From: Planctomycetota bacterium
GTDB taxonomy: Bacteria > Planctomycetota > Planctomycetia > Pirellulales > PLA5
Direction: 5' to 3'
Length of the DNA: 42,652 bases
Assembly: GCA_003576845.1 (NCBI GenBank)
Contig: QEVJ01000041.1
Coordinates: 1 to 42,652 of the forward strand
The notes below the pieces were generated by a model that saw only the letters and a list, made by a program, of their open reading frames with translations, searched no databases and was not told the DNA's origin. Both the position numbers and the translations under genes were made by a program. Below are positions 19,508 through 41,862 of the stretch, in pieces (positions within the stretch are counted from its first letter, which is position 1; each line of letters starts with the position of its first letter).

Positions 19508-19627
19508 GATCAGCGCGTACAACGTCGCCCCGAATCCCAAAGCGACCGGCCGCAGGCAGGGCAGAATTCGCCGCCGCGTCGACCGCGGCAACGCATGGCG
19601 AACCGTCACTTCACGCCGCCGCGCCGG

Positions 19628-19656
19628 TTGCCCCCGCTCGTAAAGCCATATATCCT
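19628..19656 (+). promoter_or_regulatory. Candidate promoter for the giant kinase
   Basis: TTGCCC (19628-19633) and TATCCT (19651-19656) are spaced by 17 bases. Each matches sigma-70 consensus at four of six positions. The ATG is 235 nt downstream, and the leader would include the strong hairpin at 19685-19721. Confidence 0.3.
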
Positions 19657-19684
19657 AAAGTGCTTGCCCCGCGCGGCAGCACTT

Positions 19685-19721
19685 GCGAGTGGCACGCCGG
19701 ACCGAGTCCGGCAGCCCTCGC
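19685..19721. repeat. Strong hairpin in the kinase leader
   Basis: GCCGGAC-CGA-GTCCGGC (19696-19712) is a perfect 7-bp stem with a 3-nt loop. It is extended by GCGAG/CTCGC pairing and GGC/GCC on the outside. It may be a REP element or an mRNA structure that affects translation of the kinase; no T-tract follows. The rest of 19119-19890 holds only the receiver remnant. Confidence 0.6.
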
Positions 19722-19890
19722 ACGCCGGCTCGGTTGGGCGTCTTGCGGGCCAGGTCGCTGAGGCGAAGGCGGCGGCTTGGCTCGGTGTCCGTCCCGTTGC
19801 GGAATCGTTCCCCCAGTTAACGCGCCTCGCCGTTGCGCGTCCGTAACCGACGCTCGACGGGGTTCGTTCAAGCCAGGCTTTCGCTTCGCC

Positions 19891-22800
19891 ATGCACTACC
19901 GCCCCGGTGTCGAGATCGTGCCCGGCTACCGACTCCAGAAGATGCTGGGGCGCGGCGGGTTCGGCGAAGTCTGGCAGGCCGAAGGCCCCGGCCGCATTTC
20001 CGCCGCCGTCAAGATCATCGACAAGGTCGAAGAAAAGGCCGGCCGCAAGGAATTCCGCGCCCTCAAGCTGATCAAGGACCTCCGCCACCCGAACCTCGTC
20101 TCCATCACCGGGTTTTGGCTCAAGGACGCCGACGGGCGACTGCTCGATTCCGATGCCTACATCGACGACACCGGCGCCAGCCAGGTCCGGCCGAGCGAGC
20201 TGATCGTCGCGATGGACTTGTGCGAGAAGAGCCTGCTCGACCGGCTGGCCGAGTGTCGCAAAGGACTCAGCGACGACACGCCCGGCGGAATTCCGCTCGA
20301 CGAGCTGCTCGAATACATGGAGGCCGCCGCCAAGGCGATCGACTACCTCAATCTGCGGCACCAGATCCAGCACCGCGACATCAAGCCGCACAACATCATG
20401 ATCGTCGGCGGTTCGGCGCAGGTCTGCGACTTTGGCCTCGCCTCGGCGATCAGCACGGCCCGCACGTCGATGGGCGGGGCCGGTTCGCTGGCATACATGG
20501 CCCCGGAAGTCTACTCGACCAAGCTGCCGAGCAGCGCCACCGATCAATACAGTCTGGCGATCTCGTATTGCGAGCTGCGCACCGGCCGCTTGCCGCTTTC
20601 CGACGTCGAAAGCTTCGCCGTGCTCGACGATGCCAAGCGCAAGGGCATGCTCGATCTCTCGCTGCTCGACGAACGCGAGCGCGGCGCGATCCTGCGGGCC
20701 ACGTCGCTCGATCCGGCAACGCGGTTTCCCACCTGCTACGACATGGTGCTGGAACTGCGGCGGTCGATGAGCGCGGGCTTTTCCGTTTCCTCGCCGGCCC
20801 GGGCCGAACCGATCGCCGGCTATCAGCTCGAACGCAACCTCCGCGAACGCGACGGCGAACAGATTTGGGAAGCCGTCGACCCCGACGGATTGCACGTGCT
20901 GCTGGTCGTGCGGACGATTGCCGACGCGCCCGGAACGGCAAGCTGGGCGACGCTGTCGGCCGTCCGCGACGTAAGCCGAAGCCATCCGCGATTGGCCGAA
21001 ATCTACGAGTTCGCCTGCCTGAGCGCGACGGACAAGGTATTGCCCGCGCGTCTCTTCAAGCTGCCGAATCCGCCGGCCCCCGCGAAAACCGTCGTCGCAG
21101 GCCGAAAACTGCCGGCCAACTTGTCCGAGCGGCTTTCGCTCGGCGGAATGCCGATCAAGCGGTTGTTGTTGCTCTTGGGCGATCTGGCCGAAGCACTCGA
21201 TTTTCTCAACGCTCCGCAACACGACGTCGCCGGGAAGCCGGCCGGATTTCAGCACACGAACGTCCGGCCCGTCAACTTCCTGCTCGACGACGATCGCGCG
21301 GTCCTCGCGAACTTTGCCGGCGTGCAGATGCTCGAAGCGGATGAAGCCGAATTCGCCGCCGGCAAGCAATTCGCCGAAAGCGCCTTCACGCCGCCCGAGT
21401 TCGCCGCGGGCAAGATCACGCGCTGGTCCGACCAGTACATGCTCGCCGTGTCGTACTTGCAGCTTCGCACCGGCAAGCCCTCCGCAAGCTTGAGCGGATC
21501 GACCGGCACGGGCAAGCGGCCCGACGTGCGCTCGCGGCTCGACTTGAGCGAACTCAAGCCGCGCGAACGCGAGATCGTGGCGCAAGCCACCGACGCCGAT
21601 CCGCGCAAGCGCTACGCTTCGTGCCGCGAGTTTGCCGCAGCGCTCGGTCGAGCCTGGGACGAACTGCTCGCCGCCGAAGCGCCGCCGAAGCCGCCCGAGT
21701 CGCCAAAGCGAACGTCCTCGCCCGATGCCGCCGCCGCGACGATCGATGCCGCGGCCGTCGAGTCGGTGTCGCTTTCGAGCGTGCGCGATTCGGCGCCGTC
21801 GGTGCTCGAACCCACGCCGCGACCTGCGCCGCGGCACGGTGCGACGCTCGTCCCCTCGGCCATCGAGACACGCCCGCCGCAGGACACCAATCCGGAATAT
21901 CCCGCCCCGCCGCAGCGGATCGCCGATGTGCCGCACCGCGCTGCGAAACCGCCCAAGCAACGCGGGAAACCAGCGTCCGTTTCGCCCGCAGGCGCCGCCG
22001 CCGAATCCGTCGCGCCGTGGTGGCGATCTCGCGCCGCGATCCTGGCTGGAATTGCGGTGGCCGTCCTTGCCGTGGCGATTCCCATTGGCCTTATGAACCG
22101 CGGCGACGAGAACGAGGGCGGTGGCGGCGGGAACGGAGGCATGAACAAAAACGGCGGCGAAGAAAAGCCCGCCGTCGATCCGGCGATTGCCGCGATGCAG
22201 AGCGAGATCCAGCGCGATATCGCCGCCCGCAAGTACTCCGACGCATTCGACAAGCTCCAGGCCAATCGTCAAAAGCTCGGCGGCACGGGCGATACGCTCG
22301 CCGACGAGTTGAACGCGGCCTGGACGAGCCACGTGGCCCGGCAGGTCAAAGCCGCAAGCGACCGAAGCGACCCGCCGGCGCTCCAGGTCGCGGCGGCCGA
22401 CGCGGCCGTGCTGCTGGGGCGAATGCCCGACAGTGCTCAAGGTCGCGCGTCGCTCTTGGCGGCGGCGCAAGCGCTCGTCGGCACGTTCAAGAAGGACCTC
22501 GCCAAGCCCCAATTGCCCAAGCCCGAGGCCGAGCGGATCGCCGCGGGCAGCGACCACCTGCTCGTAACGCTCGGCGCGGTGAAGCTGCGGGACGCGACGG
22601 TGCTCGCGGCGCCGACCGCGGCCGCCCAACTCGTCAAGGCCCGCGCGTTGCTCCGCGCAGAAGACGCGGCCAAGGCCAAGGTGATCTTCGCGAAGCTGGA
22701 TCCGCAATCGTTCGCCGATCCGCGCGATCGAGCCGTATGCGCGACGCTGCAGGCGCTCGTCGACGAAGCCAAGTCCGTAAACCAGCCGGCGCTCGAATCG

Positions 22801-25800
22801 CTCCTCGCGAATAATCAGAACCGGCTCGATCCCTGGGAACTCGACAAGCTGAAGAAACAGATTGACTTCGTCAAAGGCGGCGAGCTCGCGAGACTCAAAG
22901 CGCGGTGGAACGCGCTCGTCGCCGAGCTGCGCCAGCAAGCATCGGACGCCGGACCGGCACTCGCCGCCCTTCGCCGGCGTCTCGCCGAACTGCCGACGAC
23001 GGACGTCGAGATTTGGGGATATCTCACCAACGCCGCGAACACCGCGGACTATCGCGTCTATCGCGGATTGCTGCTGTTGGCGACGCTGCGGCTCGATGGA
23101 CTCGCCGATGCCGAATATGCCCAGGCGCTCGAAGACGTGAGCGAACGGATCCGCTCCGAGCGCGTGGCGGACGACGCGGCGGCGCTCTGTGCCGCGGCCC
23201 TCGAACGCGCCTTGGCCATCGAATCGGCCCTGACCTACGCCGATGCCGCCAAAACGGACGAAGCCCAGCGGCTCGTGGGTCTGGCGCGGGCAACGGCCGA
23301 GTTCGCCGCGGCTAACTTCAACGAACACGCCGCGAAGGTCTCCGAGGCGCTCGCCAGCGCCGATCGCCGCCGCGTCGAGTTGGCCGTTGCCCAGTTGAGG
23401 GCGCTTCGCGATGCGGCCGACTTCGCCGCGCTTACGCTTTATGCGGCAGGTACCGAAAGCGTCGTGCGGGGAAATCCTGCGGCGGCCGCGCTGCGAACGG
23501 CGTCTGCCGTCGAATGCGTATTGCAAGAAGACAAACGGCCATCGCCCGCCGACCGTGACGCCCTCCGCGCCGGCGCAGCCGCAGCATCCGAGCCGGACAA
23601 GCATTACGTGGCGTTCGTCGCGGCGATTTCGCGGCAAGACACGCTTTCGGAGCGGCTCGCCGAAGCGGCCGATGCGATACAGGCGGCCTACGCGGCGACG
23701 GGCCCGCACTTGAAGTGGCGCGAGCACAACGCCCGCAAGAAGTTCGCCGTGGAACGCCTGGAAGCGGCGGCGAAGGCGCAAGGCCAAGACTCGCTCGACA
23801 AGCTCGCGCCGCCGTTCTACGCGCCGCAGAGCGACGCGGCGCGAAAATCGGCCGCCTGGCTCTCGACCGCGGCGTCGATGTTTCCGGCCGAACGCACCGT
23901 GCAGGACAATTCGACGTTGCGCCGGCTGCGGCAATTGCAGGCTCTCGCGTCGTACTACGCGAACCCATCGGATAAACCCACGGCGAAGCAGGTCGCAGCT
24001 TGGACGGGCGAGTTGCTCGCGATCCCGGGCGAAGGCGCCCCGCCGCTGCACGTGGTGCTCGTCCATGCCCGCAGCATTGCGGTTGGCGGCGACAAGAGCG
24101 CGACGGTGCTGGCCTATCGGCAGCTCTACGATGCGTGCCGTGTAGCGATTGCCAAGGGTGCGAATGCCGGTCCCGCGCCGAAGGACATCGACGAGTACGC
24201 GCTCGCACCGGCCCTCGCCGCGCTCGGTAGCGCCGACGAAGCGCTCAAGTTGCAAGGCGATCCGCGCCGCGCGGCCGCCCGTCTGTTCGCCGCGAGCGGG
24301 CGCTACGCGCACCTTTATCCCGTCGTGCAGACGCGGGTCCGCAAGCAGCTTGCCTCGGGAGGCAACAACAACACGGTCGCGAAGGCGGCCTTCGACTGGC
24401 TCGACGCGGCGGTGAAGCTCGACCCGACGCGCGCCGAGTATTGGTACGGCCGCGGTTATGCGTGCGACCTGCGGCTGGAGATGTCGTATGCCGAACGAGC
24501 AGCTCAAATGGAGCAGGACGCCGCCGCGGCGCTTGCCGCCGAGCGCGAGCCGAAGAACTTTCCCGCCGCCCACGGCTTGCGCGGACTGGCGCTCTATTAC
24601 CGGACGCTGACCGTCGCCGATTTTGCCAAAAAGCGCGAGACGCTCGCCAAAGCCGACGAGGCGTATCGGCAAGCGATCGCGATGTGCGAAGCGGTGCAGA
24701 AGTCGCCGGCGCTCGCCGCGGCGAATCCCGAGCTGCTCGAAGATTATCCGGCGTTTCTCGTCGGCCGCGGATTCGTGCTGTTGCTTTCGGCGAATTACGA
24801 AACCGACCCGGCGAAAGTCGAGGCGTCGCTGGCCCAAGCACTGAAGCTCGGCTTGAGCGTGACCGACGACACGACGCCGAGCGAAGCGCCGACGCACTTC
24901 TTCGGCATCCATCCCGAGACCGCCTATCACCTCGTCGGCAATGCGCTCGAAGATTACGGATGGCTCCTCAAGCAGCCCGAGTATTATCCGCTGGCCCTGA
25001 CGCAGTTCGCCAAGGCCGAAGGCGCGGCGACGCGATTCGAGAATCCCGCCGGCGCGAACCTGAGCGCGTTTTATCGCGGCCGTTGCCGCTATAAATTCGC
25101 CGTGGACGGATACGGCGCCTCCGCGGACGTGTTGGCGTCGGTTCCGGCCGCAAAAGACAAGGAGGCCGCTCGGCAAGCGCTCGTCGCCGATTTCCGCGCG
25201 AAAGCGGCAACCGCCCTCAAGGACGCCGCCGGCGAGATCGAACAATACATCGAGAACGCGGACAAGCAAGAGGCCGACCTCAACGAAGCGTATGCGTTCT
25301 TGGCGCAAATCCATCGCGCGAACGCGGCCGTCGACGAATACGACGATTGCATGGCCGCGTTCGACATGGCCGTCGAAGCGGCCGTGCGCAATGCCCATTC
25401 GCCCACCAATCGCCAGGAGTTGCTGCTCGAACAGGCCGCCGCCGCCGTCGAGTACGCGGGCCGCGCGAAGGCGGCCAAGGACAACGACCAGGTGATCGCC
25501 CGCTGCCGCAAGGCATACGCGCTCGCCAACTCGCTGGCCACGGACGAGAAGGCCGAACCGGTCGTGCGCGCGAAGGCCAATCTCGTCGCCGCCGACGCTC
25601 GCTGGACCGAGGGGTACGAGTATCGGTCCGACGTTCAGGCGGCGCTGGATCGCGCGATCGAACTGGCCAAATCCGCCAAGGACGACCTCGTGCTGGCCAC
25701 CGCGTACTGGAAGCGCGGCGAGCTCAACGTGGCTACTGCGACCCGAGTTTCGCCGCTCGGCGCGCCGCAACACGATCAACTCGTCGACGCCACGGCCGAC

Positions 25801-26184
25801 TATTTCGCGGCGATCGAAGCCAAGGCGCCGCTGTCGGCCAGCCGAATCACGCACGCCAACAGCCTCGCCCACGTGATGAGCGCCTTGGTGCGCTCGAATA
25901 TCGAGTATCCGAAGAAAGCGGCCTTGGCAAGCAACAAGAAGAAGTACGCCGACAAGGTCGTCGAAGTCGCCCGCCAAATTCCCAGCGAGTATGGCTCGCG
26001 GCTCGACGTCAGACAGCGCGTGCAAATGGCGGCGCTCGCGAATAGTCTCGTCGATCATGCGGCGGGATTGGCCCGCGACGAGTCGCTCAAGGAGACGTTG
26101 AAGCCGGCGATTCAAACCGCCGCCGACGCGGCCGTCGCCGATCTCGAAGCCTGGCCGAAGCGCACGCCGTCGATCGAACCGTAA
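19891..26184 (+). CDS. Giant membrane Ser/Thr kinase: kinase, pseudokinase, TM, TPR-like ectodomain
   Basis: The start at 19891 puts MHYRPGVEIVPGYRLQKMLG directly before the glycine loop GRGGFGEVW; a frame extends back to 19777 without family features. Of 2097 residues, about 12-295 are a complete Hanks-type kinase: loop G20-V27, AAVK Lys41, HRD 161-163, DFG starting at D180, APEVY. Residues about 305-590 form a second kinase-like fold beginning IAGYQLERNL, in which HRD is HTN (near 453) and DFG is NFA (near 473), so it should be catalytically dead. A Pro/Ala/Ser linker and one TM (about 711-735, AAILAGIAVAVLAVAIPIGL) follow. The last 1360 residues are Ala-rich helical, TPR/solenoid-like, presumably outside the membrane. 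It likely senses an envelope signal and phosphorylates cytoplasmic proteins. Confidence 0.87.
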   Translation: MHYRPGVEIVPGYRLQKMLGRGGFGEVWQAEGPGRISAAVKIIDKVEEKAGRKEFRALKLIKDLRHPNLVSITGFWLKDADGRLLDSDAYIDDTGASQVRPSELIVAMDLCEKSLLDRLAECRKGLSDDTPGGIPLDELLEYMEAAAKAIDYLNLRHQIQHRDIKPHNIMIVGGSAQVCDFGLASAISTARTSMGGAGSLAYMAPEVYSTKLPSSATDQYSLAISYCELRTGRLPLSDVESFAVLDDAKRKGMLDLSLLDERERGAILRATSLDPATRFPTCYDMVLELRRSMSAGFSVSSPARAEPIAGYQLERNLRERDGEQIWEAVDPDGLHVLLVVRTIADAPGTASWATLSAVRDVSRSHPRLAEIYEFACLSATDKVLPARLFKLPNPPAPAKTVVAGRKLPANLSERLSLGGMPIKRLLLLLGDLAEALDFLNAPQHDVAGKPAGFQHTNVRPVNFLLDDDRAVLANFAGVQMLEADEAEFAAGKQFAESAFTPPEFAAGKITRWSDQYMLAVSYLQLRTGKPSASLSGSTGTGKRPDVRSRLDLSELKPREREIVAQATDADPRKRYASCREFAAALGRAWDELLAAEAPPKPPESPKRTSSPDAAAATIDAAAVESVSLSSVRDSAPSVLEPTPRPAPRHGATLVPSAIETRPPQDTNPEYPAPPQRIADVPHRAAKPPKQRGKPASVSPAGAAAESVAPWWRSRAAILAGIAVAVLAVAIPIGLMNRGDENEGGGGGNGGMNKNGGEEKPAVDPAIAAMQSEIQRDIAARKYSDAFDKLQANRQKLGGTGDTLADELNAAWTSHVARQVKAASDRSDPPALQVAAADAAVLLGRMPDSAQGRASLLAAAQALVGTFKKDLAKPQLPKPEAERIAAGSDHLLVTLGAVKLRDATVLAAPTAAAQLVKARALLRAEDAAKAKVIFAKLDPQSFADPRDRAVCATLQALVDEAKSVNQPALESLLANNQNRLDPWELDKLKKQIDFVKGGELARLKARWNALVAELRQQASDAGPALAALRRRLAELPTTDVEIWGYLTNAANTADYRVYRGLLLLATLRLDGLADAEYAQALEDVSERIRSERVADDAAALCAAALERALAIESALTYADAAKTDEAQRLVGLARATAEFAAANFNEHAAKVSEALASADRRRVELAVAQLRALRDAADFAALTLYAAGTESVVRGNPAAAALRTASAVECVLQEDKRPSPADRDALRAGAAAASEPDKHYVAFVAAISRQDTLSERLAEAADAIQAAYAATGPHLKWREHNARKKFAVERLEAAAKAQGQDSLDKLAPPFYAPQSDAARKSAAWLSTAASMFPAERTVQDNSTLRRLRQLQALASYYANPSDKPTAKQVAAWTGELLAIPGEGAPPLHVVLVHARSIAVGGDKSATVLAYRQLYDACRVAIAKGANAGPAPKDIDEYALAPALAALGSADEALKLQGDPRRAAARLFAASGRYAHLYPVVQTRVRKQLASGGNNNTVAKAAFDWLDAAVKLDPTRAEYWYGRGYACDLRLEMSYAERAAQMEQDAAAALAAEREPKNFPAAHGLRGLALYYRTLTVADFAKKRETLAKADEAYRQAIAMCEAVQKSPALAAANPELLEDYPAFLVGRGFVLLLSANYETDPAKVEASLAQALKLGLSVTDDTTPSEAPTHFFGIHPETAYHLVGNALEDYGWLLKQPEYYPLALTQFAKAEGAATRFENPAGANLSAFYRGRCRYKFAVDGYGASADVLASVPAAKDKEAARQALVADFRAKAATALKDAAGEIEQYIENADKQEADLNEAYAFLAQIHRANAAVDEYDDCMAAFDMAVEAAVRNAHSPTNRQELLLEQAAAAVEYAGRAKAAKDNDQVIARCRKAYALANSLATDEKAEPVVRAKANLVAADARWTEGYEYRSDVQAALDRAIELAKSAKDDLVLATAYWKRGELNVATATRVSPLGAPQHDQLVDATADYFAAIEAKAPLSASRITHANSLAHVMSALVRSNIEYPKKAALASNKKKYADKVVEVARQIPSEYGSRLDVRQRVQMAALANSLVDHAAGLARDESLKETLKPAIQTAADAAVADLEAWPKRTPSIEP

Positions 26185-26252
26185 ATTCTCGATATGCTGT
26201 TGGTTTCCCCACGGTTTTCCGGCCGCCTCCTTCTCCAGAGAAACCCGACGCA

Positions 26253-27311
26253 ATGGATTCCGCCGCTCTCGATTTCTTCAAGCGCATCCTGGCAACCCCC
26301 AGTCCCTCGGGCTACGAAGGCCCCGTGCAGGCACTCGTCCGCGAATACGCCGCGGGATTCGCCGACCGCGTGACCACCGACGTGCACGGCAACGTCATCG
26401 CAGTAAAAAATCCCGACGCGCCGCTCCGCGTCATGCTCGCCGGGCATTGCGACCAGATCGGTCTGCTCGTCTCGTACGTCGATTCGGAAGGCTTCGTCTA
26501 CATTCAGACGATCGGCGGGTGGGACCCGATGCAATTGATCGGCCAGCGGCTCACCGTCTGGAGCCAAAACGGCCAGGTCGAAGGCGTCATCGCCCGCAAA
26601 CCGATCCACTTGCTCACCGAGGAAGAGCGTAAGCAAGTGCCCAAGATCAAGGACCTGTGGCTCGACATCGGCGCGAAGAACAAAGACGAGGCGCTCGCAC
26701 GGGTGCGGATCGGCGATCCGGTGACGCTCGCGCTCGGATACACGGAACTGCCCAACGACCGCGCCTGCTCGCCGGCCATGGACAACAAGTCGGGCCTGTG
26801 GGTCGTGATCGAAGCGCTGCGACGAGCCAGCCAGCGCGGCGTCCGTTGCGGGCTGTATGCCGTATCGACGGTCCAGGAAGAAATCGGCCTCCGCGGCGCG
26901 AAAACCAGCGCGCACACGATCAATCCGCACGTCGGCATCGCCGTGGACGTGACCCACGCGACCGATTGCCCCACGATCGACAAGAAAGAGCAAGGAGACG
27001 TGGCCCTGGGCGGCGGGCCGGTCGTCTATCGCGGGCCGAACATGAACCTCAAAGTGACCGAACGGCTCATCGAGGTTGCGGCGCGTTCCGAAATTCGCAT
27101 TCAACCTGCGGCGATCGGCCGCGCTACGCCCAACGACGCCAACATGCTCCAAATCAGCGGCGGTGGCGTCGCCACGGGACTCATCAGCATCCCCAATCGC
27201 TACATGCACAGCGCCGTCGAGATGATCTCGCTCGAAGATATCGACCGCGCGGCGGAGCTGATCGCCAACTTCGCCGTCGGGCTCTCGGGCGACGAGGATT
27301 TTACGCCGTGA
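26253..27311 (+). CDS. M42-family metallo-aminopeptidase
   Basis: The 352-residue protein fits the M42 family of two-metal aminopeptidases (FrvX/TET type), cytoplasmic enzymes that trim peptides. Features are PSPSGYEGPV near the start, the metal-binding segment MLAGHCDQIGLLV, SPAMDNKSG, the catalytic VQEEIGLRGA, VDVTHATDCP, GGGPVVYRGPNMN, and the C-terminal IPNRYMHSAVEM with a metal-ligand His. One oddity: the family usually has HxDE after the first His, but here it is HCDQ. The older label endoglucanase M for this family is not supported by sequence. It follows the kinase gene after 68 nt on the same strand. Confidence 0.87.
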   Translation: MDSAALDFFKRILATPSPSGYEGPVQALVREYAAGFADRVTTDVHGNVIAVKNPDAPLRVMLAGHCDQIGLLVSYVDSEGFVYIQTIGGWDPMQLIGQRLTVWSQNGQVEGVIARKPIHLLTEEERKQVPKIKDLWLDIGAKNKDEALARVRIGDPVTLALGYTELPNDRACSPAMDNKSGLWVVIEALRRASQRGVRCGLYAVSTVQEEIGLRGAKTSAHTINPHVGIAVDVTHATDCPTIDKKEQGDVALGGGPVVYRGPNMNLKVTERLIEVAARSEIRIQPAAIGRATPNDANMLQISGGGVATGLISIPNRYMHSAVEMISLEDIDRAAELIANFAVGLSGDEDFTP

Positions 27312-38400: not shown

Positions 38401-38958
38401 TTCCTCGCCGGGGCGACCAATGTTGACGGACACGTTTCGCTCGACTTGACGGGGGCATGGATTCCCCTGTCCGACATGCGGACGACGCAGGCGGCCGGGA
38501 AGCTTCAGATTCACAAAGTCGAAGTCAGCGGCGGGCCGCTCTTGGGCGACATGTTGCCGGCCGTGCTGATGCTCCAGCCGCAGCGCGTGCCCTTGTTGCC
38601 GGAAGTCGAGTTCTGGGTCGAGAAGGGCCGGGTCTGGCACCGGGGCGTCGGAGTCCAACTGCGGGAGACAGCCGTTTCGACCACCGGCTCGGTCGGATTC
38701 GACGAGTCGCTGGATATCGTGGCCGAAATGAATGTGCCGGAAAAATGGCTCGGCCAGAATGTCCTGGGAACGGCACTGAAAAATCAGAAAATCAAGATTC
38801 CGATTCGAGGGACGCTCTCCCGGCCCCAGGTCGACGCCCAGCAGTTGGCGAAACTGCGGGCGGAGTTCGTCGGCGAGGCGGCTGGGAACATCATTCGGGA
38901 CGAGTTATTCGACCGTCTGCTGAAGCCGCGCGAACCGGCCGACGGCCAACGCCGTTGA
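35443..38958 (+). CDS. Large AsmA/TamB-like membrane-anchored protein
   Basis: The 1171-residue protein has a short cytoplasmic N-terminus, one membrane segment (about 30-49, WIWLLVAPVLVVLALPTIV) and a long periplasmic part. Beginning with STKPFRGRVLKLAASQI and many repeated beta-rich segments such as SLSLGWFSSQSVGDLSI, the pattern is that of AsmA-like proteins. Towards the end it has AAGKLQIHKVEVSGGPLLGD and a segment resembling the AsmA-like C-terminal region (VGFDESLDIVAEMNVPEKWL, KIKIPIRGTLSRPQVD). Related proteins form bridges that carry phospholipids between inner and outer membranes; this role is inferred. GGAAGG about 5 nt before the ATG fixes the start. Confidence 0.75.
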   Translation: MATVLTEAFDDALPAKPAAATAAVPRRRRWIWLLVAPVLVVLALPTIVSTKPFRGRVLKLAASQIDGEVNCGSLSLGWFSSQSVGDLSITGRDGRVLLSGATIEVPKSLFSLALSPGDLGTVRITGPQVNLFVRADGSNFEDVLAKLLKPEEPSASTVTGTIVVGGASATIVDEVRQREWKVTAFDANVELSPDATTATKGTISAQLAADPDTPRLACEFVLPKSDGGGTTNGASAQLSLKTERFPLDLCEAIGRRWDQNLRLSGRLTTDLAAQWPAGESGVYAARGTQAIEALRYRATALGSDELRLVKAEGPFDVRWDGRQLDVKPTSLSCDVGRVAVQGTAPVERFAMASLVAALATASLEASADVDLARVAAMLPETLRVRPGTRIVGGKLQANLGRRNDATGQTSIGDIGITDLAAEENGRRITWDQPLRLSFDVNESPRGVVVNRLACESEFLQFDGRGTLADFSGEMRFDLDRLMREARRFIDVGDVQLAGTGNGQLQIRRGDDGVFGANGTFDVRDFRFAMPGDRVWEEHLVRLKLDANGLIEDGSAGRRLAELHAATASVESSGEQVVVQLAKPVFKINRTTLWPVNVRIASGNLANWTLRLRPWIDVGGWQASGICNATASATISVDAIDLAKFNAAIDDFAVSTQGRDRYLDENVALAASGRFEFAPARLAIYDASFRGTGTAVDAKEFRIALDASQATGDASFELDLERASPWLSQLLAGTGSGGLAGQLVGSLRLEDQGGVMRIVANLAGDNLGVVSRTAATTPGSMALVDRKLRAAVDATYDRSAGTLRLASGQIAGEAVQLAAQGTVKGIQATMEVDITGQLDYDLARLTPVLRWYFGDGIRLSGRGPQQFAIRGPLDGTMITAAPFAEGARPTTVPRWRDALVVEAGIGWQEIQWYDFRAGPGQLRGRLANGRLAVDPIQVALQEGQLTLAPQVYLTADPMMLALPKGQVLKDVRLTPDLCAAGLKYVHPFLAGATNVDGHVSLDLTGAWIPLSDMRTTQAAGKLQIHKVEVSGGPLLGDMLPAVLMLQPQRVPLLPEVEFWVEKGRVWHRGVGVQLRETAVSTTGSVGFDESLDIVAEMNVPEKWLGQNVLGTALKNQKIKIPIRGTLSRPQVDAQQLAKLRAEFVGEAAGNIIRDELFDRLLKPREPADGQRR

Positions 38959-39164
38959 GTCGCAACTCGTTAGCATATAAATCTTTAGGACGCTGGCCGC
39001 CTTTCCGCAAGTTGGCGCGTTTCGGCCCGGGCGGCGTACCGGGCCGGGGTCTTGGCGAGCCGAAGGGCCGCATCCTTTCAAGTCGTCCCAGGCTTCCCAA
39101 ATCCCCTAGTCTGGAGGTTAGGGTAGTCGTAGAAGTTTTTCGCCAAAAGTGGCAACGCGATATC

Positions 39165-39193
39165 TTGACGCTTGCCGCGGCCGGGCTAAGAAT
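39165..39193 (+). promoter_or_regulatory. Candidate sigma-70 promoter in a 790-bp gap
   Basis: TTGACG (39165-39170) and TAAGAAT (39187-39193) are 16 bases apart. Transcription would start near 39200, 550 nt before the next start codon at 39749. The gap 38959-39748 shows no convincing gene, so the transcript would have a long untranslated leader or include a small RNA. Confidence 0.35.
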
Positions 39194-39748
39194 GAAGGTG
39201 TCGTGATTTTGGGACGCGATTTCTGCGAAATTGTCTTGCCACCACAGTTGGCGAGAACTTTTTCCGCGGAAATGGCACTCAGCGCACGATAGGCCTGCGG
39301 CGACACGTCGCCAAACGGCCCGCGGCACGTGAACAGGCCGCGAGAGATCGAGGCACGTCGGCGGCCCAGCAATTGGGTCGCCGCCGCACGAACTGAACCG
39401 GGACAGGGAACGACAAAGTCGACCGGGAGAGTGAACCACGCGCATCGAAACCACGTAGTTGGGCGAAGAGGCAATACCGCGGCAGTTTTTAACGAATAGT
39501 CAAACGACGTTCGCGAATCACTGTGGCGTGGACCAACGACCGGAACCGTTTCGACGCGCTTGGCGACTAACTTTCTCGGTTCCCGCCTAACACACTACCG
39601 TGACGGCGCGCCCCACGCACCGTCCTAAACCGTAAACGTCGGCACACGATGTCGTCGGCGTTCCTTACTTGAAATGCAGCCCTTTGCTGCGTGCTGTTTT
39701 GCGTTGCGCGCCGAGTACTGCGCTCAACGCGAACAGGGGACCACTCAC

Positions 39749-40870
39749 ATGAAAATGAACAAAGCCACCTCCGTCGAAGAATTCAAACTCGTCAGCAGCT
39801 TCGAGAGCCTTCGCAAGACGCTGCTCCAAGAGCGCTACAGCGACCGCTTGGACCGGCCGCTGGCCTTTTGGGCATTGCCGAGCGACCGGCGTTTGCCGCT
39901 GGCCTTTCTCGGCCGCTCGATCGGCGAGTTGCTCAATACGCCGTTTGCCGACCTCAACGCCACGCCCGGCATCGGGCAGAAGAAAATCAGCTCGCTGATC
40001 AAGCTGCTCGCCCGCGCGACGCGCGACGAGCCGCCGGCCGTGCCGTTCGGCGTCTCCGATAACGAACCGGCCAAAGCCGAGACAAGCCAGCGCGAAGAAC
40101 TGCCCGCGGGCTTCGACCCCATGTGCGTCTCCGAAGCGCTGTGGGTCCAATGGCGCGACACCGTCCGCCGTCTGGGCCTCGGCTACGAGAAGCTGGGACG
40201 CCTCGCGCCTTCGCTCCAAGAGCTGCCGACTGTCATCTGGCACACGCCGCTCGATCAATACGTCGATCGGACGTTGGATGAAATCCGCAATCTCAAAACG
40301 CACGGCGAAAAGCGCGTCCGCGTCGTGCTCGAAGTGTTTTGCGTCGTGCATCAGATGCTCGTCGACGCCGGCCCGCAGGATCATCTCGTCGTGCGGCTCG
40401 CGCCGCGGTTCGTCGTGCCGATCGAGAATTGGATTCGCCGCTGGATGGACCAGCCGGGCGTGCCTTCGGCCGACGAAGTGCTGCAAAACCTGGCGAATCC
40501 GCTCATCGAACAGTTGACCGTCGACGCCGGCGAAACGGTGATCCAACTCGCCAAGGGCCGGCTCGGCTTGGACGGCCCGCCGCAGAGCGTTCGCACGCAG
40601 TCGCGGCGAATGGGCGTCACGCGGGCCCGCGTCTATCAATTGCTCGACGAATGCAGCAAGGTGATGGGCATCCGCTGGCCGGAAGGTCAGGCGCAGCTTC
40701 GCGCGTTGTGCGAGAAGGTCCGCGCCGAGAACGCCGACGGCAAGGTCGACACCAAGCTCCTCGACGCGACGGTCGAGTTGTTCTTCCCGCGGAAGTACGA
40801 CGCCCTGGCGGACGCCGACGGCGATCAGGACGAAGCGGAGCCCGCGACACAGGAGTTCGCCGAAGTCTAA
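39749..40870 (+). CDS. Putative transcription factor with alpha-CTD-like HhH and sigma-region-4-like HTH
   Basis: The start at 39749 (ATG AAA ATG AAC) follows an AGGGGA sequence; the frame extends 25 codons further but with no ribosome site. Of 373 residues, about 58-88 (LGRSIGELLNTPFADLNATP, then GIGQKKI) resembles the helix-hairpin-helix of the RNA polymerase alpha C-terminal domain. A second similar motif lies around 175-200 (TLDEIRNLKTHGEKRVRVVL). From about 279, SVRTQSRRMGVTRARVYQLL resembles the sigma-70 region 4 helix-turn-helix that reads -35 boxes. The acidic tail (DADGDQDEAEPATQEFAEV) could contact partners. It probably binds DNA and may touch RNA polymerase, but I do not know a named family. 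Its TAA overlaps the TAG of the convergent GT2-like gene (CTAA). Confidence 0.7.
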   Translation: MKMNKATSVEEFKLVSSFESLRKTLLQERYSDRLDRPLAFWALPSDRRLPLAFLGRSIGELLNTPFADLNATPGIGQKKISSLIKLLARATRDEPPAVPFGVSDNEPAKAETSQREELPAGFDPMCVSEALWVQWRDTVRRLGLGYEKLGRLAPSLQELPTVIWHTPLDQYVDRTLDEIRNLKTHGEKRVRVVLEVFCVVHQMLVDAGPQDHLVVRLAPRFVVPIENWIRRWMDQPGVPSADEVLQNLANPLIEQLTVDAGETVIQLAKGRLGLDGPPQSVRTQSRRMGVTRARVYQLLDECSKVMGIRWPEGQAQLRALCEKVRAENADGKVDTKLLDATVELFFPRKYDALADADGDQDEAEPATQEFAEV

Positions 40871-41862
40871 GCCGCTTTGCGCGCCATAACGGGCGACGGT
40901 GCTTCGTCGCGCATGGCTCGTGATAGCTCTTCGAAACTCATACTCACGCTCGCCGGCGACTCGTCGTCGGCGAGCCTGATTTGTTGCGCGAGGTGGCCAC
41001 CGTGGCTCAGATGCCGCGGAAGTTCGCACAAGCCGATCAATCGTCCCAAGAGCCGCTTCGCGATCGCCGGCCGGACGAGCGCGGCGCACAGTTCGCCGCC
41101 CACGAGCACCGCGTGGGCAATGAGCGAAACCGCGAACCCTTGACCGTTCGCGTGTCGCCAAAACACCGCCTCGGCCGCGCGGCCCGCGCCAATCGAATCG
41201 CCCGCCTGCGCCGGCGCCGGTCGAGCGAACACGAGCGACCGCGGTTCGAGCACGGCGAGGAATCCCAGCTCCGAAAGCGACAGCGCGACGTCGGCGTCGG
41301 CCATTGCATGCTTGCCGACGACGCCCACACAGGCGACGGCCGCAAGCAACGCATCGCGGCGATAGAACCCAGCCGAAAGCGATGGTCCCAATACGACTTC
41401 CGGCCGCGCATGCGATTCGCATATCCGGCTGCGGGCCAGCGTCGCCCGCCGCGGCCGCTGCTTTCCGCCGCGATGATAGTGGATCCCGGCGGAAACGACC
41501 GTCCGCGAATCCGCCGCGTCGAGCACCAGCGGCGCCACCGCGCCAATGTGCGCGTCGCGAGCAAAATGACCGAGCGCCGCGTCGGCCCAACCGTCGTTGA
41601 CCTGGGCTCCGGCGGCGAGCACATGGATCGCATCGCCCTGACATTCGCCGATCGCCTCGACCGCCGCGGAGATGCCCGAAGCCCCGTCCCGCCCGCGGAC
41701 GAATCGCACTTCGCCGTCCAACTGATACGGGTCGGCATAATCGTGGGCGAGGGCAACCACGATTTCGCAGTCCGTCGGCCGATTCTCCAGCACCGACACG
41801 AGCGTGGTCTCCAACTCGCGGGCCGAGCGATTCGACACGATTACGATCGAAAGCCGAGGCAC
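40867..41862 (-). CDS. Glycosyltransferase family 2-like protein
   Basis: The GTG start at 41862 is supported by AAGGAG about 7 nt before it. The 331-residue protein opens with the GT-A fold signature RLSIVIVSNRSARELETTLV and continues DCEIVVALAHDY and FVRGRDGASGISAAVEAIGE, as in GT2 enzymes that transfer sugars from nucleotide donors. At the expected DxD metal site the sequence reads HVLAAGAQVNDGW, without the usual aspartates, so catalysis is doubtful or altered. No membrane segment is evident. No other polysaccharide genes are close. The tail overlaps the convergent gene's stop in CTAA. Confidence 0.72.
   Translation of the reverse strand: MPRLSIVIVSNRSARELETTLVSVLENRPTDCEIVVALAHDYADPYQLDGEVRFVRGRDGASGISAAVEAIGECQGDAIHVLAAGAQVNDGWADAALGHFARDAHIGAVAPLVLDAADSRTVVSAGIHYHRGGKQRPRRATLARSRICESHARPEVVLGPSLSAGFYRRDALLAAVACVGVVGKHAMADADVALSLSELGFLAVLEPRSLVFARPAPAQAGDSIGAGRAAEAVFWRHANGQGFAVSLIAHAVLVGGELCAALVRPAIAKRLLGRLIGLCELPRHLSHGGHLAQQIRLADDESPASVSMSFEELSRAMRDEAPSPVMARKAA

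Follow-up and report, generated by a model that had tools for sequence, protein, structure and literature searches.

Does a planctomycete protein that joins helix-hairpin-helix (HhH) motifs to a helix-turn-helix (HTH) of the sigma factor kind work as a partner of RNA polymerase, or does it act on DNA in its own right? The protein, P0001, is encoded in the window, the 42,652-nucleotide stretch of DNA analyzed here, which is contig C254 of a 7.05-Mb host genome in 289 contigs. The reading frame at 39749-40870 on the forward strand translates into 373 amino acids plus a stop codon (coding part 39749-40867). A start of the form M-K/R-x-x-K lies at the same point in many of the 56 homologous ORFs, and 39749 is preferred over the in-frame ATG at 39674 because many homologues begin there. 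Relative to the gene of a same-genus orthologue (L033), dN is 0.117 and dS 0.896 (dN/dS about 0.13), with codon positions 1, 2, and 3 differing at 56, 25, and 150 sites, respectively. Translation, homologue starts, and dN/dS agree with the 373-residue protein proposed in an earlier note on this DNA; P0001 is a genuine protein under purifying selection. Conservation within the family is based on an alignment (A1) of 46 proteins, consisting of P0001 (for locus L001) plus 45 homologous ORFs chosen from the other 55; the ten ORFs omitted resemble near-duplicates of included rows.

The HTH is part of a genuine sigma-70 region 4 domain (sigma4), which spans residues about 234-327 (40448-40729, forward strand, as are all features of the gene). 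Within the domain, the HTH occupies residues about 281-309 (40589-40675) and contains the motif GVTRARVYQLL, and an RWPEG signature at residues 309-313 (40673-40687) aligns with the R-x-P turn of sigma region 4. R309, W310, and G313 are present in all 46 members and P311 in 45, while the HTH residues R292, R294, and Q297 are each retained in 43. P0001 alone has no Pfam Sigma70_r4 match. The family profile aligns with 29 local sigma-70 region-4 sequences at 75% in hhalign (E 2.6e-5), and with seven longer relatives added the same comparison gives 95.3% (E 2.3e-8). Four of the six longer relatives scanned exceed the Sigma70_r4 gathering score of 24.1 bits (27.3, 28.1, 28.4, and 33.2 bits) and the remaining two reach 19.0 and 21.4 bits. 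The best solved-structure matches of one of them, L179, are sigmaA region 4, with a PDB chain at 2.9e-6. The longer relatives carry TRERIRQ, TRERVRQ, or SRERVRQ in the motif, like true sigma factors, and most members from the order carry TRARVYQ or a close variant.

The AlphaFold model of P0001 (mean pLDDT 87.9, pTM 0.79) is consistent with this assignment. The top rows of the VIA structural comparison are sigmaA region 4 chains, led by 8cyf_B with a Z of 8.4, an rmsd of 2.6, and 88 of 89 residues aligned; whole sigma factor chains align at about Z 7 over 80 residues. Because Z values below about 13 can arise among helical proteins, the sequence evidence for sigma4 weighs more. The best E value of a Foldseek search with the model is only 0.29, yet sigma chains top the list. 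In a viral structure library, phage sigma factors rank near the top of the list, and no row has an E at or below 0.001. The sigma-region-4-like HTH of the earlier note therefore holds on family profiles, on the Pfam scores of longer relatives, and on the model.

The best reading is nevertheless that P0001 is not a sigma factor. P0001 gives no Sigma70_r2 match even with E allowed up to 10, and this model is absent from the best 25 of the 33 Pfam families listed for the 46 members. R292 and Q297 are the presumed equivalents of R584 and Q589 of sigma-70. The alignment also contains a position that presumably corresponds to E585, a residue that contacts a base in sigma-70. This position is alanine in 40 of 46 members, which makes a true -35 preference doubtful.

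The N-terminal half of P0001 contains two HhH modules. The first domain consists of residues 29-92 (39833-40024), with the motif TPGIGQKK at residues 72-79 and its hairpin GIGQKK at about 39968-39985. The second region consists of residues 147-204 (40187-40360), with the hairpin HGEKR at residues 185-189 (40301-40315). Residues 97-117 (40037-40099), between the two, form a low-confidence linker with pLDDT below 50. G76, K79, G186, and R189 show no variation across the 46 aligned members, both hairpins are flanked by helices in the predicted models, and the N-terminal half modelled alone has a pLDDT of 85.1. Among the 46 members, 18 match the Pfam HHH_5 model, with a best E of 4e-5; P0001 itself has no relevant Pfam match. 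Both modules are HhH.

The earlier note had gone further and likened both hairpins to the C-terminal domain of the polymerase alpha subunit (alpha-CTD), for which the evidence is weak. Residues 29-92 can be superposed on 9mse chain G (its residues 248-312), which is probably the RNA polymerase alpha subunit judging by its residue numbering; the match, at a Z of 4.5 (rmsd 3.0, 62 aligned, 24% identity), is weak and confined to this one chain. Residues 147-204 align with DisA residues 293-354 at a Z of 3.2. The alpha-CTD Pfam model (PF03118) matches four of 46 members (best E 0.051), and hhalign of the family profile against 46 alpha-CTD segments of local genomes gives 3.6% and 4.0%. This comparison is not significant; the HhH label is safe and the alpha-CTD label is unproven. 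Foldseek with the N-terminal model has a best E of 1.7, and a CODH/ACS chain, the top VIA row for that model (Z 5.3, among weak rows), is taken as a common helical arrangement. Structure prediction of both motifs, the check proposed earlier, thus returned the sigma4 fold in VIA and the hairpin helices, and only a weak match for alpha-CTD. Alpha-CTD domains do occur elsewhere in these genomes. L059 (G000:C289) encodes a TPR protein with two tandem C-terminal alpha-CTD domains, paired matches of this kind are found in 24 of the 25 genomes searched in the order, and many genomes carry an additional short alpha-CTD frame.

Beyond sigma4, P0001 continues into a C-terminal helix and the residues FFP (residues 336-348; 40754-40792), and most members likewise have a C-terminal helix followed by FFP or FYP. 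The usual place of sigma region 4 is within a sigma factor that is held by the polymerase flap, to which region 4 of true sigma factors binds. In sigma4-flap chimeras, the flap-tip helix of the polymerase is placed after sigma4. Five rows of this type (8cyf, 8d5v, 7kug, 7kuf, and 6ido) align the P0001 model through residues 346-350, and the other 45 VIA rows stop at residues 312-323. Because only the chimera alignments extend this far, helix 336-348 seems to occupy the flap-tip docking site, a lead drawn from alignment ranges rather than inspected coordinates. If the placement is right, it argues against an ordinary contact between sigma4 and the flap. Sequence mimicry of the flap tip was considered and rejected: when the family tail profile is run along 12 RpoB chains from local genomes, the segment of the flap tip scores -6.6 bits; its rank is 10 to 16 in the 11 chains with 1081-1291 positions and 2 in the twelfth, a partial one with 640. 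In the absence of sequence likeness, the cap is suggested by structural position only. The remaining residues, 349-373 (40793-40867), have a net charge of -8. The acidic tail described earlier is therefore real in P0001 but variable across the family, in which tails past residue 347 have a median charge of -2 (29 of 46 at or below -2), and it is not a strict family feature.

Of 396 sampled genomes of its order, 114 contain a match to P0001, covering 74 of 144 genera; of 294 phylum-wide genomes four do, every one of which is the host or belongs to the same order. The family gene usually occurs once per genome in the order. The host genome harbors a second copy with 45% identity, L044 and L045 are tandem pairs of family copies, and genome G305 has several divergent paralogues. 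A scan of 297 class genomes with profile A1 gives matches in 48 (E up to 1e-5), including seven outside the order, and a contig search with a single sequence returned two loci. The key residues of the two HhH motifs and the HTH co-occur in 39 of 46 members. Partial-profile matches are found in ten of 294 phylum genomes, four being the host or same-order genomes and six others. The two inspected among these six were rejected as family members: by eye, L064 resembles a NusA-type protein and L066 resembles a sigma-70 factor. The phage and plasmid collections hold no family match and none was confirmed in viral contigs, and a mobile origin is accordingly rejected. No publication on the family was found among the openly licensed PMC papers searched. 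P0001 belongs to a conserved, unnamed planctomycete family.

The core of P0001 is also contained in seven ORFs of 518-998 amino acids from other orders, the longer relatives. The first HhH region is present in three copies in L174, two in L176, L178, L179, and L180, and one in L175 and L177. L174 to L178 extend about 300-430 residues past the matched core, and their post-sigma4 regions look alike by eye. In six longer relatives, sigma regions are the only Pfam domains with E up to 0.01, and the C-terminal part of L176 has no solved-structure match. The gene that starts at the stop codon of L174, the longest relative, encodes an SF2 helicase whose PLD-like match is weak (L174:7339-9468), a defence-like pairing seen once. 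In the window, the gene upstream of P0001 (35443-38958, forward strand) encodes 1171 amino acids; its weak DUF748 match does not reach the curated cut-off. The downstream gene (40867-41862, reverse strand) is convergent with the P0001 gene and overlaps its end; it lacks Pfam matches at E up to 1e-4 and reads by eye like a glycosyltransferase. Of 22 further loci, which differ in length, 11 again have the downstream gene and six have the 1171-residue gene. Ten neighbor genes scanned have mostly metabolic or general-enzyme matches, and neither these nor the 22 loci contain an operon partner that suggests a function or provides a regulon clue. Elsewhere in the window, ORFs of 2215 (19606-26253, reverse strand) and 2135 amino acids (19777-26184, forward strand) share the same stretch on opposite strands, and probably only one of the two is real.

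Upstream of the gene, TTGACG-17-AAGAAT at 39165-39193 (forward strand) is the sole promoter-like match in 38800-41000, with 9 of 12 positions matching; shuffled sequence is expected to give 0.2 such matches. Both hexamers are identical in L033 and the spacer is partly changed. Judged on sequence, a putative promoter at 39165 with a leader of roughly 550 nt is plausible. Within this leader, a block at 39406-39505 is 82-88% identical between the two species of the genus and more conserved than its surroundings. A structured leader RNA was rejected: 38900-40000 has no Rfam match at E up to 1, and neither strand of 39395-39520 folds better than its shuffled versions (z 1.59 and -0.02). Matches to 39395-39600 occur in two of 57 genomes, the host and one of the same genus. 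The block may hold putative regulatory sites.

Taken together, P0001 is probably a DNA-binding regulator. Its fuller description as a chromosomal non-sigma regulator, in which a detached sigma4 and two HhH domains modulate transcription, has a slightly better than even prospect of being correct. In this mechanism, the detached region 4 (234-327) would use its HTH to read the major groove at a -35-like or related sequence, and the flexibly linked HhH domains 29-92 and 147-204 would grip the adjacent DNA backbone without sequence specificity. Bound P0001 would most likely block or reshape promoter or operator DNA, and transcription would be modulated without replacement of sigma. DNA binding and promoter targeting are what we infer, and the direction, repression, is a guess. 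The reading is weakened by the lack of basic character in the sigma4 and second HhH regions, with a net charge of -1 each in P0001, and by neighbors that give no regulon clue. The role of polymerase partner, in which the HhH domains lie on UP-element DNA like alpha-CTDs and sigma4 at the -35 box or flap so that P0001 bridges the two, draws on the real sigma4 homology, on the flap binding of sigma4 in true sigma factors, and on the weak match of the first HhH to residues 248-312 of a chain in an RNA polymerase complex. It is unlikely, given a C-terminal helix that seems to sit in the flap-docking site, a protein with no recognizable sigma region 2, and no significant alpha-CTD profile match.

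A role in DNA maintenance or in the nucleoid, with the HhH and HTH binding the chromosome for repair, replication, or compaction, is rather improbable. HhH motifs are widespread in repair proteins, weak ERCC-1 matches appear here, and the longer relatives have more HhH repeats; one of them adjoins the SF2 helicase and one a LigD-type phosphoesterase gene. However, these two neighbors were each seen once and in distant relatives only, and the best conserved homology is the sigma4 HTH. A role as a defence-associated DNA sensor, with the module found in the BREX kinase PglW or in MzaA of the MZA system, appears very improbable, since the loci examined have housekeeping-type surroundings with no defence cluster and a single copy is retained in many genomes of the order. 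Its support comes from PglW, which has HhH and HTH in the same order (PMC12839542) and whose PADLOC model matches two of 46 members (best 2.9e-4), and from longer relatives that match the sigma4 stretch of MzaA; against this, the likeness to PglW is weak (hhalign of the family against PglW, 30.7% and 43.9%) and that to MzaA is sigma4 only.

A further reading is speculative and doubtful: an untethered sigma4 with its own substitute for the flap-tip helix, which would fold and read promoter-like DNA without polymerase while anchored by HhH. Such a protein could be a competitor of sigma at -35 elements, and polymerase docking could be switched on when the cap opens. The combination of a detached sigma4, HhH domains, and a helix at the flap site would, if true, represent a core promoter-recognition domain turned independent regulator, and the family would then provide a handle on the little-studied gene regulation of planctomycetes.

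Known systems share parts of this architecture. P0001 resembles sigma-70 region 4 proteins (PF04545) in fold, in the R-x-G-L ... GVTRxRVxQ motif, and in the R-x-P turn after the recognition helix; it differs in having no recognizable region 2, mostly alanine at the E585-equivalent position, and an extra C-terminal helix. The RNA polymerase alpha-CTD is a small helical HhH-based domain with a weak structural match to P0001, but the VRSxNCL stretch of local alpha-CTDs is missing from P0001 and the profile match is not significant. In the anti-phage system MZA, the sigma-like protein is MzaA (NF041931); what the longer relatives share with it is confined to its sigma4 stretch, where the best E is 1.9e-7. 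All 294 phylum genomes match the MzaA model though none exceeds its cut-off, and these matches are taken as ordinary sigma factors. The middle region of PglW, the kinase of BREX type 2, has an HhH (alpha-CTD-like) domain before the helix-turn-helix, the order seen in P0001 and in PglW of related genomes, and the alpha-CTD model scores above its cut-off within the PglW frames of G121 and G298. PglW itself is about 1400 amino acids long with nuclease-like, kinase, and STAND parts, none of which is found as a Pfam domain in the 373 residues of P0001, and the similarity is weak and local. PMC12839542 describes PglW as having three wHTH modules after an alpha-CTD-like domain, which tempers the earlier claim of a new type of polymerase partner: the HhH-plus-HTH combination is already known, though not as the whole-protein architecture that P0001 displays.
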